A DNA stretch of 40,958 bases, from the NCBI GenBank assembly GCA_017859335.1, contig JAFMNH010000008.1:898-41855 (forward strand). The letters run 5' to 3'. A model generated the notes under the pieces. The model saw nothing but the letters and a program-made list of their open reading frames with translations. It was not told the DNA's origin and made no database searches. Positions 311-9,384 of the stretch are shown here, in pieces. Each line of letters opens with the position of its first letter. The first letter of the stretch is position 1. The position numbers were made by a program, and so were the translations under genes. This DNA comes from Rhodothermales bacterium. Lineage in GTDB: Bacteria; Bacteroidota; Rhodothermia; Rhodothermales; UBA10348.

Positions 311-341
311 TTGACACACATATAATGCACATATTACCATG
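311..341 (+). promoter_or_regulatory. Putative SOS-type operator/promoter element, copy 1, upstream of imuB
   Basis: TTGACACACATATAATGCACATATTACCATG, matching the elements at 4781 and 5164. Confidence 0.6.
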
Positions 342-388: not shown

Positions 389-1693
389 ATGGAAACTCGA
401 CCTCTCTCCTTTTCCGATTCCGATCCTGAGCGCCAGGGCTCCGATGCCCCCCGAAAGGCAGCCACTGACGCCAGCACCCCGGCACTCATCGGCTGCCTGA
501 CCATAAAACACTTCCCCGCTTGGGCCATTGCCATGGCGCGGCACCACGACGGCACGCAGCCGCTCATCGTGCAGGAGGAAAACCATATCGTGGCGCTCAA
601 CCGGGCCGCCGCCATGCAGGGCCTTGAGCGCGGCATGACGGCGGCCCGGGCCCGTTCCCTGTGCCCCGAGGCAGCGTGCCATCTGCGCGACCCCGTGGCT
701 GAATTCAGCGCGTGGGAAGCCGTGCTCGAGCGGATCAACCGTATCACGCCGTTCATGGAAAGCACGTTCGGACAATCGGGTGCGTCTTCGCGTGGAGCCT
801 CCTCGAAGGGCGTTGCCTCCCTCACCCGTTCGGATCAGCCGCAGCTCTGGCTGGCGGCCGCACCCGATGAAGTCCGTATGATGGCGCGGTCCCTGGGCGC
901 CTCCATCGGCTTTGCCCCACACCGCTCCACAGCCTGGCTGGCCTCCATCCGGGCCGGCGCAGGGGAGCTCCTTACTGTACCGACAGACGAGGTCGAATCC
1001 TTCCATGACAGCTTCCCCGTATCCTGGCTTGAGGAGGCCGGCTTCGGCATCGACTGCGTGGATGGTCTGCAGATGGTGGGGTGCGAAACGCTGGGCACGG
1101 CGCGAGCGATGAGCGAGCGCCATCTGAAACTCGCTTGGGGCGATGAAGGCGTGCGCGTCCACCGCCTCCTCTATCCCGACGATGCCACATCGGTCTCGCT
1201 TTTCCATCCGGCGCCATCCATCAACACCCACTTCACCCTCTTCACGCCCTGCTACGACGCGCCCTACCTCGTGCCCATCGTACACCGGCTCGTGCAGAAG
1301 GCCCATGACAAGCTGAAGGACAACATCGTCGGCCAGGTGCGCCTGGTGCTGCACCTCGAAGGGCACCCGCCCGAGCGTGCTGCCCGCCTCCTGACCCATC
1401 CCACGACCCGTCTCGATGCGCTCGTTCGCTTTGCCGAAAAACTCGCTGAAGACCTTTTCAGCCGCATCACCCGGGATAAAGGGCGCGTGGGCGTCGAGAA
1501 GATCGAGATAGAGTTGGCCGGCCTCTTGACCGGGGACATGATCCAGATGTCGCTCTTCGACCGGCGTCTGCGCGAGGTCAAGGAGGCCGTTTCAAAAGTC
1601 CACCGCCGCTATCCGCGGGCCCTCAAGAAACCTGTGGTCCGCGAGGGCGCCCACTTCCACGAAGACCGCTATTCGTATGTCGTCTGGGAGTGA
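389..1693 (+). CDS. imuB: Y-family DNA polymerase, ImuB-type (SOS mutagenesis)
   Basis: 434 aa. N-terminal CLTIKHFPAWAIAMARHHDGTQPLIVQEENHIVALNRAAAMQGLERGMTAARARSLCP is typical of ImuB/DinP-like proteins. dnaE2 and a DUF6504-like gene lie nearby. Confidence 0.85.
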   Translation: METRPLSFSDSDPERQGSDAPRKAATDASTPALIGCLTIKHFPAWAIAMARHHDGTQPLIVQEENHIVALNRAAAMQGLERGMTAARARSLCPEAACHLRDPVAEFSAWEAVLERINRITPFMESTFGQSGASSRGASSKGVASLTRSDQPQLWLAAAPDEVRMMARSLGASIGFAPHRSTAWLASIRAGAGELLTVPTDEVESFHDSFPVSWLEEAGFGIDCVDGLQMVGCETLGTARAMSERHLKLAWGDEGVRVHRLLYPDDATSVSLFHPAPSINTHFTLFTPCYDAPYLVPIVHRLVQKAHDKLKDNIVGQVRLVLHLEGHPPERAARLLTHPTTRLDALVRFAEKLAEDLFSRITRDKGRVGVEKIEIELAGLLTGDMIQMSLFDRRLREVKEAVSKVHRRYPRALKKPVVREGAHFHEDRYSYVVWE

Positions 1694-4200: not shown

Positions 4201-4510
4201 CGCTGGCGATGATTGTGGATTACAACAGTGCGCAAACAAGCGTCGTGCCAACGGTCCACACTGCGCTCTATACGGGCTTTAACGGGTCACAATGACACAT
4301 TATTGTGCATACCATGCAGCAGGATGTCGACATAATGACACACTTCCCGAGTAATTGCCTGTCACTTTTTCACCTCCTGCACTCTGCCGATTTTATTGGT
4401 CTGGTCCTTCGGTTTTGCAGCCTGGTATAGTAGACGTACAGGTGTGCGCTTGTTCTATCAGCTTCATCTCAGGCACCGCACTTTCGGCTTCACCCCTTAC
4501 CTCTCCCTTT

Positions 4511-4582
4511 CCGTCTCCACTTCCATCTCCGTCTCCACTTCCATCTCCGTCTCCACTTCCATCTCCGTCTCCACTTTCATCT
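4511..4582. repeat. 18-bp tandem repeat (minisatellite), 4 copies, decaying into CT-rich sequence to about 4645
   Basis: CCGTCTCCACTTCCATCT at 4511, 4529, 4547 and 4565 (last copy with one substitution); 6-bp sub-periodicity. Confidence 0.9.
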
Positions 4583-4650
4583 CCATCTCAGTCTCCCTTC
4601 CAATCTCCACTTCCATCTTCCTCTCCGTCTCCCTTTTTCCCTTCCGCAGT

Positions 4651-4752
4651 CAGTTGTACAACTCGTACAACATTGTGCGCATGTACAGAAAAGAACGCGG
4701 CCAGTTGTACAACTCGTACAACATTGTGCGCATGCACAGAAAAGAACGCGGC
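4651..4752. repeat. Two adjacent 51-bp direct repeats
   Basis: CAGTTGTACAACTCGTACAACATTGTGCGCATG[T/C]ACAGAAAAGAACGCGGC at 4651-4701 and 4702-4752, differing at one position. Confidence 0.95.
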
Positions 4753-4780: not shown

Positions 4781-4813
4781 TTGATGCACATATGATGCAC
4801 ATGGTATGATGAG
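4781..4813 (+). promoter_or_regulatory. Putative SOS-type operator/promoter element, copy 2, upstream of the DUF6504-like gene
   Basis: TTGATGCACATATGATGCACATGGTATGATGAG. Confidence 0.65.
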
Positions 4814-4848
4814 CACCTCAGTCATCACCTGAAAAATCACCGCTGATC

Positions 4849-5109
4849 ATGCTCAAACGTGTCCGCCGTCCACGCCCCATCCAGTTCGCCAAAGAGGTCC
4901 GGTTCAAGGGTGACCGCTCCGTCGTACTCATCGATGGCAACGAACGTCTGCCCATCCGGGAGGTGGTGGAACAGTGGGATGTGCGGGGCACGTGGTGGGC
5001 CACCGAGCGGCATCGGCGCTACGTCACGCTGCGCACGGAGCGGGGCACGTTTGATGTGATGCGGGACATGAAAACCGGTCGCTGGACCTTGGTTGGCGTC
5101 TACGATTGA
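4849..5109 (+). CDS. DUF6504-like small protein associated with the ImuB/DnaE2 mutasome
   Basis: 86 aa with IREVVEQWDVRGTWWATERHRRYVTLRTERGTFDVMRDMKTGRWTLVGVYD, matching the known DUF6504 layout (WR..GxWW...R.YY.v....g...l.rd...g.W.L..vyD). Lies between imuB and dnaE2. Confidence 0.7.
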   Translation: MLKRVRRPRPIQFAKEVRFKGDRSVVLIDGNERLPIREVVEQWDVRGTWWATERHRRYVTLRTERGTFDVMRDMKTGRWTLVGVYD

Positions 5110-5125
5110 CCTGAAATCGTGGCAA

Positions 5126-5139
5126 TGCACATGTGTGCA
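5126..5139. promoter_or_regulatory. Additional TGCACA-type inverted repeat between the DUF6504-like gene and dnaE2
   Basis: TGCACA-TG-TGTGCA; shares the TGCACA core of the nearby operator-like elements. Confidence 0.35.
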
Positions 5140-5163
5140 CCCACCTTTTTCATGGAAGCGATC

Positions 5164-5196
5164 TTGATGCACATATAATGCACATGGTATTGTGAG
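5164..5196 (+). promoter_or_regulatory. Putative SOS-type operator/promoter element, copy 3, upstream of dnaE2
   Basis: TTGATGCACATATAATGCACATGGTATTGTGAG; nearly identical to copy 2. Confidence 0.65.
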
Positions 5197-5248
5197 GTCC
5201 TTTTGATTCAGCCGGGCCTCCTGTGCAGCCCGAAAGCCCACTATTCGC

Positions 5249-8200
5249 ATGTTTGTGCATTTGCATGCCCGTTCCTGGTATTCCTTCCGTGCCGGGGGAT
5301 CTCCCCCTGAAGCCCTGGCGGCCGAGGCGGCCCGTCTGGGTATGTCCTCCATGGGTATCACGGATCGGCACGGGACCTATGGCGTGATTCGTTTCCAGCA
5401 GGCATGCAAGGAACATGGCCTGCGGCATGTACTTGGCGCCGAAGTACCGCTGCAATGGACGCCTCCGGGTAGCCAGCAATCCTTTGACAGGCACCATCCA
5501 ATCGGCGATGTCGTACTACTGGCAAAGAACCGCGAGGGCTACGCCAATCTGTGCAGGCTCCTGACGGACGCTCACCTCACGGCCGGCGAGCGCGACGATC
5601 GGGACAACCCCTGGACGACGTTTGACGTGCTGGCCGAACACGCGAAGGACCTGATCTGCCTCACGGGATCGGACGAGGGACTGCTCTACCCGTTGATGGA
5701 TGCAGGCATGAGTATGCTGGCCGGGCAGCTGACGGGCGCGCTGAAAGAGATCTTCGACGACCGGCTGTTTGTGGAGCTGACCCACCAGCGGCGCAAGGGC
5801 GATGACCGTCGACTCGGCCGTCTGATCCGGCACGCCGCGCAAGCCGGTATTCCCACGGTGGCTACGGGCGATGTGCGCTATGCCCTGCCCCGCGACTACT
5901 GGCGCTATGACCTGCTGACTTGCATCCGACATGGCATCACGGTCTTCGAGGACCACCCCCATCGCCCCTCGAACGCCATGGCCTATGTACAGCCCGAGGC
6001 GGAGCTGGCTCGCCGAGGGCTGCCACACGATGCCATCCACCGCAGCGGGGAAATTGCGGGCGCCTGCCAGGTCGACCTGATCCCCGGTCACATCATTCCG
6101 CCCGGCGCCCGCCTGCCGGAGGGCGTCACCTCCGGCGACCTCTTCCGGCAGAAAGTCGAGGCCGGGTTTGCCCGCAAGTATCCCGAGGGTGCAAAGCACT
6201 GGAAGGCCGCCAGACAGCGACTCGAGAAAGAGGTCGTCATCATCATGGATCTCGACATCCAGGACTTTTTCCTGGTTGTGGCCGAAGTGGTCGAAGAGGC
6301 CGGGCGACGGGGCATCCGCTGCCTCGGGCGCGGGTCGGCAGCCAACTCCATCGTGACCTACCTGCTCGACATCACGCGGGTCTGCCCCATCGAGCACAAC
6401 CTGTTGTTTGAGCGGTTCCTGCATCGAGGGCGCAAGGGCACGCCGGACATCGACCTGGACTTCGATTCGAGTCGGCGCATGGAGATCATCGAGTGGATGG
6501 AAGAGCGATTCGGTGCGGCACATACGGGTATGGCCGCTACCATCGACCGATACCTGACCAAGTCGGCCGTTCAGGACACAGCCAAGGCGCTGGGCTGGCC
6601 CCCCGAAATGGCCGTGCAGATGTCCAAACGCTGCAGCCACGAACCGCCCACCGCGGAGTACAATGCCACCCACATCGAAGGCGTGGCCGGCGGCAAAAGC
6701 CCGCTGCTGAAGATCCTGCTCTCGGCGTCGACGGCCCTCATGACGGTCCCTCGCCACCTGGGGCAACACTCGGGCGGCATGGTCCTGACGCGGGACCCGA
6801 TGCCGTACTTCTCTCCCCTGCAGCAGAGTGCCAATGGCGTACGCGTCGTGCAGTTTGACAAGAACGACCTCGAGTGGCTCGGGCTGGTCAAGCTGGACGT
6901 CCTTGGCCTGCGCATGCTGGGCGCCGTGTCCGAGGCTGCTCGGCTGGTAGCAGACCGGCAGGGTGAGATCATTGACCTCGACGCCCTGCCCTTCGACGAT
7001 CCGAAAGTCTACGACCGGATTTGCGAAGGTGATGTACTGGGCCTCTTCCAGATCGAGTCGCCCGCGCAGATGAGCGCGGGCGCCCGCATCCAGGCACGCT
7101 CCATGCAGGACCTGATCAAACAGATATCGCTCGTACGCCCGGGGCCGATCCTGGGCGGCCTCATGCATCCTTTCATCCGACGGCACCAGGGCATCGAGAC
7201 CGTCCGCTACGAGCATCCCATACTGGAGGACATCCTGCATGACACGTATGGTGTCATTGTCTTTCAGGAACAGGTCCTCGAGGTGGCCCACCGCTTTGCC
7301 GGCTGGTCCCTTGACCGCGCAGACCAGTTCCGTCGCCTGATGTCCCGTTTCCGGGACTCGAACGAAATGGAAAGCATGCGCGAGGGCTTCGTCGAGTCCG
7401 CGCTGCAGGTGGACACGAACCCTCCCATCTCCCGAACCGTGGCCAACCGGGTCTTTGACCAGGTGTCCAAGTTCGTGGGATACGGGTTCTGCCGCTCGCA
7501 TGCCGCTTCGTTCGCCCTGACAGTGTATCACAGCGCGTATCTGAAGGCCTATTACCCGGCGGCCTTCATGGCCGCCGTCATGCAGCACCGCCCGGGCATG
7601 TACGCCCAGATGACGCTCGAGCAGGAAGCCCGACGTCACGGCGTACGTGTACTGGTACCGGACATCAACATCTCCGGTCTGCGCTTCGACCTGGAGAACG
7701 TGCAGTATGCCTGGGCCATCCGCAAACCACTCACCTCCGTCAAAGGCGTGTCTGAGACGTTCGCAAAAGACATCGTGCTCGAGCGCCAACTCGGCGCGTT
7801 CACCAGTTTCGAGGACTTTTTCCACCGCGTGCCGGCCGACGAGAAAGAACTCCGGTCGCTGGCCAAGGCGGGCGCCTTCGATCAACTCGAAGGCGCCAAC
7901 AGAACAGTCCTCTACAAGATGCAGGTGCTTTTGAGGCGCCGCGCCAGCGGCGCCCAACTCGACTTCGAGTCCCAGAAAATGGCCCGGACACTGCTCGATG
8001 TGCGCTCCCTGGAGGAGAAGGACATCCCGGCACTGCCCGGCATCACGCTGCGTACGCGCCTGGAGTGGGATCTGCGTACGCACTCCGGCCCGCGGGTTCA
8101 CCCGATGATCGTGTTGCGCCAGCATCTGGCAGACTGGGAGATCCGCCCCATCGACACGGCCCGGGAGTTCGGTACCGTCCTGCCCTGGAAAGAGAAACAA

Positions 8201-8545
8201 CAGCCCACGTTCACGGCCGCCGGCCTCGTCATGTTCAGGCAGCGCCCCGGCACGGCCAAGGGCACCATGTTCATCTTCCTAGAAGACGAGACCGGCTACA
8301 TCCAATGCATCTGCAAGCCCGACATCCGGGAAAAGATGGGCGAAACACTGCATGAGAGCGCCCTCATCGTCCGGGGCAAACTGCAGGTCGTCGGGCCCTG
8401 GCGGGGCATCATGGTCGAAGAGGCCTGGGCGCTGGCGGGAGTTATCGGGGGCTACAAGGGCCGACCCGGGTCCCAGTACTACGGCCGGGACGAGCGGGAA
8501 ACCGCATTTGAACGTGCACCCAGGAAGCGGGGCCAGCACGCCTGA
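5249..8545 (+). CDS. dnaE2: Error-prone DNA polymerase III alpha subunit DnaE2 (ImuC)
   Basis: 1098 aa. N-terminal PHP domain FVHLHARSWYSFRAGGSPPEALAAEAARLGMSSMGITDRHG; GRGSAANSIVTYLLDIT; TPDIDLDFDSSRR; VGYGFCRSHAASFALTVYHSAYLKAYYPAAFMAAVM; C-terminal OB fold. Confidence 0.96.
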   Translation: MFVHLHARSWYSFRAGGSPPEALAAEAARLGMSSMGITDRHGTYGVIRFQQACKEHGLRHVLGAEVPLQWTPPGSQQSFDRHHPIGDVVLLAKNREGYANLCRLLTDAHLTAGERDDRDNPWTTFDVLAEHAKDLICLTGSDEGLLYPLMDAGMSMLAGQLTGALKEIFDDRLFVELTHQRRKGDDRRLGRLIRHAAQAGIPTVATGDVRYALPRDYWRYDLLTCIRHGITVFEDHPHRPSNAMAYVQPEAELARRGLPHDAIHRSGEIAGACQVDLIPGHIIPPGARLPEGVTSGDLFRQKVEAGFARKYPEGAKHWKAARQRLEKEVVIIMDLDIQDFFLVVAEVVEEAGRRGIRCLGRGSAANSIVTYLLDITRVCPIEHNLLFERFLHRGRKGTPDIDLDFDSSRRMEIIEWMEERFGAAHTGMAATIDRYLTKSAVQDTAKALGWPPEMAVQMSKRCSHEPPTAEYNATHIEGVAGGKSPLLKILLSASTALMTVPRHLGQHSGGMVLTRDPMPYFSPLQQSANGVRVVQFDKNDLEWLGLVKLDVLGLRMLGAVSEAARLVADRQGEIIDLDALPFDDPKVYDRICEGDVLGLFQIESPAQMSAGARIQARSMQDLIKQISLVRPGPILGGLMHPFIRRHQGIETVRYEHPILEDILHDTYGVIVFQEQVLEVAHRFAGWSLDRADQFRRLMSRFRDSNEMESMREGFVESALQVDTNPPISRTVANRVFDQVSKFVGYGFCRSHAASFALTVYHSAYLKAYYPAAFMAAVMQHRPGMYAQMTLEQEARRHGVRVLVPDINISGLRFDLENVQYAWAIRKPLTSVKGVSETFAKDIVLERQLGAFTSFEDFFHRVPADEKELRSLAKAGAFDQLEGANRTVLYKMQVLLRRRASGAQLDFESQKMARTLLDVRSLEEKDIPALPGITLRTRLEWDLRTHSGPRVHPMIVLRQHLADWEIRPIDTAREFGTVLPWKEKQQPTFTAAGLVMFRQRPGTAKGTMFIFLEDETGYIQCICKPDIREKMGETLHESALIVRGKLQVVGPWRGIMVEEAWALAGVIGGYKGRPGSQYYGRDERETAFERAPRKRGQHA

Positions 8546-8703: not shown

Positions 8704-9384
8704 ATGTGCGGACGCATTGTAAACAACATGCAGCCACGTTTTCTGCGTGAGCAATTCGACGAAGTCGCTGGGGCGGATATCCTCGAAGAAACCGGCCTAC
8801 TGCCACGATTCAATCTCCCGCCGACGGGTCATTTGCCCGGAATCCGGATGAACCAATACGGAGGTCAGAAATGGGAAATATTCCGGTGGGGCCTGATTCC
8901 GCGATGGGCTAAACCTGATCGTATTCCGGATCGCACCTTCAATGCACGCGGAGAAACGGTCGCGGATAAACCGACATTCCGCGAAGCATGGAAGAAAAGA
9001 CGCTGTGTTCTTCCCATCAGCGGGTATTTTGAATGGACCGGGCCAAAGGGCCACAAGGAGCCCTTCTATTTTCACCGGGAGGATGGAACGCCCCTCATGT
9101 TGGCCGGCCTGTGGGAAACATGGCAACACGAGGATACCTTAGTGGAATCGTGTACGATAATAACCCGGCCTTCCACGGGAAAAACTGCAGAGTATCATCA
9201 CCGGATGCCTGTTTTCATCGACCGAACAGAAATGGATGCCTGGCTGTCAGGTCCCGTGGAAGTGGCAGCAGCTTTGATTCAAAAACCGGATATTGACGCA
9301 CTGGATATATATCCGGTAAGTCGGGAGGTCAATAACACACGCAACGACTACGCTTCATTGATAGAACCCATCGCCTCCGAATAA
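8704..9384 (+). CDS. SOS response-associated peptidase family protein (SRAP; YedK/HMCES-like)
   Basis: MCGRI start with catalytic Cys2; FRWGLIPRWAKPD; FNARGETVADKPTFREAWKKRRCVLPISGYFEW; HHRMPVFI. Confidence 0.93.
   Translation: MCGRIVNNMQPRFLREQFDEVAGADILEETGLLPRFNLPPTGHLPGIRMNQYGGQKWEIFRWGLIPRWAKPDRIPDRTFNARGETVADKPTFREAWKKRRCVLPISGYFEWTGPKGHKEPFYFHREDGTPLMLAGLWETWQHEDTLVESCTIITRPSTGKTAEYHHRMPVFIDRTEMDAWLSGPVEVAAALIQKPDIDALDIYPVSREVNNTRNDYASLIEPIASE

Follow-up and report, generated by a model that had tools for sequence, protein, structure and literature searches.

A direct-repeat LexA motif, TTACACATATTTTWTACATA, has been described for the Balneolaeota through motif discovery and EMSA with the LexA of Balneola vulgaris (Kilic et al., 2020; PMC7739468). 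The Balneolaeota LexA regulon comprises lexA, recA, polymerases IV and V, a helicase, a radical-SAM gene and an SOS peptidase, and direct-repeat LexA forms have evolved independently in several instances (PMC7739468). In the Bacteroidetes, the repressors are non-canonical, CI-like S24 proteins with palindromic motifs (PMC8565304). A literature search on LexA with Rhodothermus returned nothing relevant, and the papers searched held no LexA motif for the Rhodothermales lineage. Genome-based taxonomy places the Rhodothermales and the Balneolales in one class. At NCBI, the two groups are found in separate phyla.

The repeated element studied here is, with little room for doubt, the LexA operator (SOS box) of a Rhodothermales bacterium, in a direct-repeat variant. 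A box of this type has already been published for the Balneolaeota, and the present one is an extension of that known system and not a new operator class. The window, meaning the whole 40,958-nucleotide stretch of DNA that was analyzed, comes from a genome of 2.6 Mb that is 96.6% complete, and three copies of the element were found in it, upstream of imuB, of a small ORF of the mutasome operon and of dnaE2 (Table 1). The copies start at 311 (TTGACACACATATAATGCACAT), 4781 (TTGATGCACATATGATGCACAT) and 5164 (TTGATGCACATATAATGCACAT), and the distances of 78, 68 and 85 bp to their start codons (ATGs at 389, 4849 and 5249), as given in a preliminary description of this DNA, were all correct on re-checking, as were the two direct TGCACAT half-sites of the third copy, which start 11 bp apart at 5168 and 5179. 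The label DUF6504, which the same description had attached to the 86-aa ORF, holds only as a weak match through two homologues (E ~0.01, below the cut-off), and the window protein itself gave no Pfam hit.

Table 1. Predicted operators, promoters and genes of the mutasome locus, in window coordinates.
Feature	Position	Strand	Basis or remark
Sigma-70-like promoter TTGACA-18-TACCAT enclosing operator 1	311..340	+	Promoter scan; TTGA and TAT..T flanks kept in relatives
LexA operator core 1 CACACATATAATGCACAT (predicted)	315..332	+	Upstream of imuB; conserved at imuB in relatives
imuB-like Y-family polymerase homologue (IMS domain)	389..1693	+	Pfam PF00817, E 1.8e-06
Sigma-70-like promoter TTGATG-18-TATGAT enclosing operator 2	4781..4810	+	Promoter scan
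LexA operator core 2 TGCACATATGATGCACAT (predicted)	4785..4802	+	Upstream of small ORF; kept there in genus members
Small ORF, 86 aa, conserved between imuB and dnaE2 in family	4849..5109	+	Homologue comparison
Promoter-like TTGATG-18-TATTGT enclosing operator 3	5164..5193	+	Read from sequence and alignment with relatives; below generic-scan threshold
LexA operator core 3 TGCACATATAATGCACAT (predicted)	5168..5185	+	Upstream of dnaE2; kept there in genus members
dnaE2, error-prone DNA polymerase III alpha	5249..8545	+	Pfam; best NCBIfam match PRK05672 (error-prone DNA polymerase), below its curated cut-off
SRAP (SOS-response-associated peptidase) gene	8704-9384		Directly downstream of dnaE2; Pfam

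A 22-mer taken from the element, at ≤3 mismatches, occurs at these three places only in the window, with 0 such cases in 100 dinucleotide-preserving shuffles. The element had been described as roughly 22–27 bp long; the repeat is real and extends over 31–33 bp, but the operator core makes up only ~18 bp of it, the outer parts (TTGAYR and TAT/TACNNT) being promoter hexamers. A PWM of the 18-bp core scored 25.3–30.3 at the three sites, against 9.6 for the next independent site in the window and a top score of 15.4 in 15 Markov windows, and the same scan of the window found no further sites at the SRAP gene (8704; best score 3.3) or at other promoters. When shifted by 11 positions the core has a self-identity of 0.78, compared with 0.32 expected, which reflects two direct ACAT half-sites with an 11-bp period, and the operator consensus YRCACATATWWTRCACAT is a direct repeat of about TRCACAT. 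A palindromic reading was rejected, as its best symmetry was 0.52–0.62 compared with 0.78 for the direct repeat.

Beyond the window, CACATATWWTRCACAT at ≤2 mismatches has exactly five matches in the 2.6-Mb genome, all five at damage-response promoters (imuB, the small ORF, dnaE2, lexA and recA), compared with a single match for the reversed control pattern. Across seven genomes of the genus, all 24 matches at ≤1 mismatch lie upstream of these same five genes, and the control pattern again matched once; such scans were aimed at strong sites, and weaker targets could escape them. The recA site (CACATATATTGCACAG, ~145 bp from the ATG) is itself weaker, and a match with 3 mismatches (L005) was set aside, as it sits within a large metH-like ORF. 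Seven single matches near non-target genes were observed in other genera of the family, a frequency similar to that of the control pattern. The genome scan and the phylogenetic footprinting that the preliminary description had suggested therefore both bear it out, with a motif that is not random and is present at lexA and recA, and a site that is kept in the orthologous promoters of imuB, dnaE2 and lexA.

All three window copies of the element fall on a TTGAYR-18-TAYNNT sequence, and as similar promoters look alike, the repeat could be no more than a core promoter (-35/-10) that the genes have in common, without a specific regulator. The core does fill the promoter spacer at imuB, the small ORF and dnaE2, where 18 bp separate a TTGA(C/T)(A/G) -35 from a TATNNT-like -10, and these flanks are kept in relatives. 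However, a promoter spacer is normally free to vary, and here the spacer core is better conserved than the rest of the element. A common promoter would also be expected at hundreds of genes, whereas the element is found at five. At lexA, moreover, the core is inverted and lies over the -10 of a TTGNNN-17-TAWTAT promoter (lexA strand), an arrangement seen in 11 of the 30 lexA upstream regions examined, namely those of the window's own genus and the nearest genera. As the core is present in both orientations with different hexamers, it appears to be the site of a bound protein, an operator and not a shared promoter, and an explanation by promoter sequence alone is hardly credible. It is just as implausible that a promoter segment or a mobile repeat was recently duplicated to give the three copies, with no separate maintenance of each. 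Copies 2 and 3 do resemble each other closely (TTGATGCACATATRATGCACATGGTAT), yet their flanks outside the promoter are unrelated, the CACATATWWTRCACAT scan found no copies elsewhere in the genome apart from the lexA and recA sites, and the same positions are occupied, with drifting sequence, in orthologues that are 45–90% identical. This orthologous conservation refutes duplication for the whole set; duplication at the origin of one box is possible.

If a protein binds the element, the preliminary description had left two candidates: a LexA box specific to the lineage, or a site bound by some damage regulator other than LexA. The latter, be it a CI-like S24 repressor or a DdrO- or PafBC-like factor, has a precedent in the non-canonical S24 repressors employed by the Bacteroidetes (PMC8565304), and such a regulator could in principle control lexA too. 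Against this, the genome, at 96.6% completeness, encodes a lone S24-peptidase protein, which is a canonical LexA, and the LexA of the sister group binds the same architecture in vitro (PMC7739468). The LexA carries both the LexA DNA-binding wHTH domain (PF01726, E 7.6e-17) and the S24 domain (PF00717, E 6.6e-17), and aligns with solved LexA structures, including the A-G cleavage-site segment (ITAGK), the GNSM serine and the SLKK lysine. There is no need to invoke a CI-like, Bacteroidetes-type repressor, and a non-LexA regulator is not supported and very improbable. The lineage-specific LexA box is instead strongly favored by the sites at lexA and recA, by a canonical LexA as sole S24 repressor and by the shared architecture of the EMSA-confirmed motif of the sister group; the assignment is made because architecture, position, repressor and intermediate sites (see below) agree together.

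By homology, LexA would bind and repress at these sites and DNA damage would induce the genes behind them. A LexA dimer on the operator is expected to block RNA polymerase, occlusion being assumed by analogy with every characterized LexA system, and the inverted operator over the lexA -10 would allow lexA autorepression. DNA damage would then activate RecA, which would stimulate the self-cleavage of LexA and free the operator, such that lexA, recA and the translesion-synthesis cassette would all be induced after the loss of LexA.

Through much of the family, the site is present at the orthologues of imuB, dnaE2 and lexA (45–90% identical). The sequence drifts within the family, with spacers of AWWT, TTTT and ATT, but CACAT/CAYAT at period 11 is strongly kept. 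The lexA promoters of more distant Rhodothermales tend towards CACAT-N6-CACAG(TA), and in some of these promoters the site was not detected. In families f17–f21, of the same class and other orders, the lexA promoters possess TRCACATAYWTTATACAT-type sites in the same 11-bp register, which was taken from the PWM scan, as the unseeded motif search gave a shifted version there; by the usual genome-based taxonomy these families would be Balneolales. The unseeded search did recover the motif in the window's own family, and CACAT-N6-CACAG in other Rhodothermales. Between the Rhodothermales and the other orders of the class, the recognition-helix segment SPNSVTQN(L/I)QAL hardly changes.

Of the known systems, that of the Balneolaeota is the closest to the element, sharing its 11-bp direct repeat, its ACAT half-sites, its canonical LexA and its sites at lexA, recA and error-prone polymerases, and in other orders of the class the sites are intermediate and the recognition helix is almost the same. 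The element differs in its half-sites, which are TGCACAT/CACACAT compared with TTACACAT/WTACATA, and in its spacer, AWWT compared with TTTT. The regulon detected in the genus is also small (lexA, recA, imuB, the small ORF and dnaE2), with SRAP lacking a box, unlike in the Balneolaeota. When matched to TTACACATATTTTWTACATA, the five own sites agree at 13–14 of 20 positions, which is near the 99th percentile of single random 200-bp segments and marginal if taken alone, and the lexA sites of the other orders agree at 14–19 of 20. On sequence comparison, the element would be a diverged relative of the Balneolaeota motif, joined to it by intermediates. The alphaproteobacterial box GTTC-N7-GTTC shares the direct repeat and its 11-bp period, but its half-site sequence is unrelated, it belongs to a different phylum, and GTTC is absent from the three window sites. 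The neighboring phylum Bacteroidetes shows a likeness in that dinB-type polymerases, recA and imuA-imuB-dnaE2 are under SOS control, but there the repressor has a CI-type N-terminal domain whereas the genome here encodes a canonical LexA, and the dyads GGA-N5-TCC and CTAA-N5-TTAG were not found in the sites, which are direct repeats.

Whilst imuB, the small ORF and dnaE2 form three separated units in the window's genus, each with its own box, genus g6 possesses one box before a contiguous imuB-small ORF unit and another at lexA, and in two of its genomes (G021 and G026) dnaE2 starts a few hundred bases past imuB. It may be that the whole class inherited the direct-repeat LexA box from its common ancestor, and that in the window's genus unrelated genes broke up an imuB-small ORF-dnaE2 operon into three units, each gaining and keeping a box of its own, a scenario for which the chances are about even. 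If true, the ancestral box and the operon split would make operator gain traceable after the break-up of an operon.

These findings allow an SOS operator and a core regulon to be proposed for a Rhodothermales lineage, and suggest that the direct-repeat form of the Balneolaeota reaches a sister order. They also tie a small uncharacterized ORF to the LexA-controlled ImuB-DnaE2 mutasome. Their use lies in annotation and in the study of LexA motif drift; a new mechanism is not revealed.

In the recA upstream regions of genus g10 (L094 and L103), CGAACATATGTTTGAT, a palindromic AACATATGTT, replaces the direct repeat, and is possibly a locally altered LexA box. None of the six genomes of the Rhodothermales family f3, genus g12 (G028, G042, G052, G069, G076 and G125) has a LexA homologue at E <1e-40, and for three of the six the best match at a looser cut-off is a weak S24 protein (E ~1e-9 to 1e-10); LexA may have been lost there.

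Some further features were seen around the promoters themselves. At the imuB, small-ORF and dnaE2 promoters and their counterparts in relatives, a conserved CCC triplet lies ~6–8 bp past the -10, at about the expected transcription start, with 80–85% agreement per position over 20 promoters, and its equivalents in the window (~346–348, 4816–4818 and 5199–5201) deviate from the triplet. Promoters with a C start are unusual. Window positions 5120–5141, some 40 bp ahead of the dnaE2 box, hold GCAATGCACATGTGTGCACCC, which is imperfectly palindromic and has the half-site of the box, and several congeners have CGCACATGTC immediately 5' of the -35; either is possibly an auxiliary half-site near the dnaE2 box. 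On its upstream side, the small-ORF promoter adjoins a 51-bp direct tandem repeat (4645–4746, 94% identical) that contains TTGTACAACTCGTACAA and is itself preceded, at ~4490–4644, by an imperfect, pyrimidine-rich CCATCTCCGTCTCC repeat.
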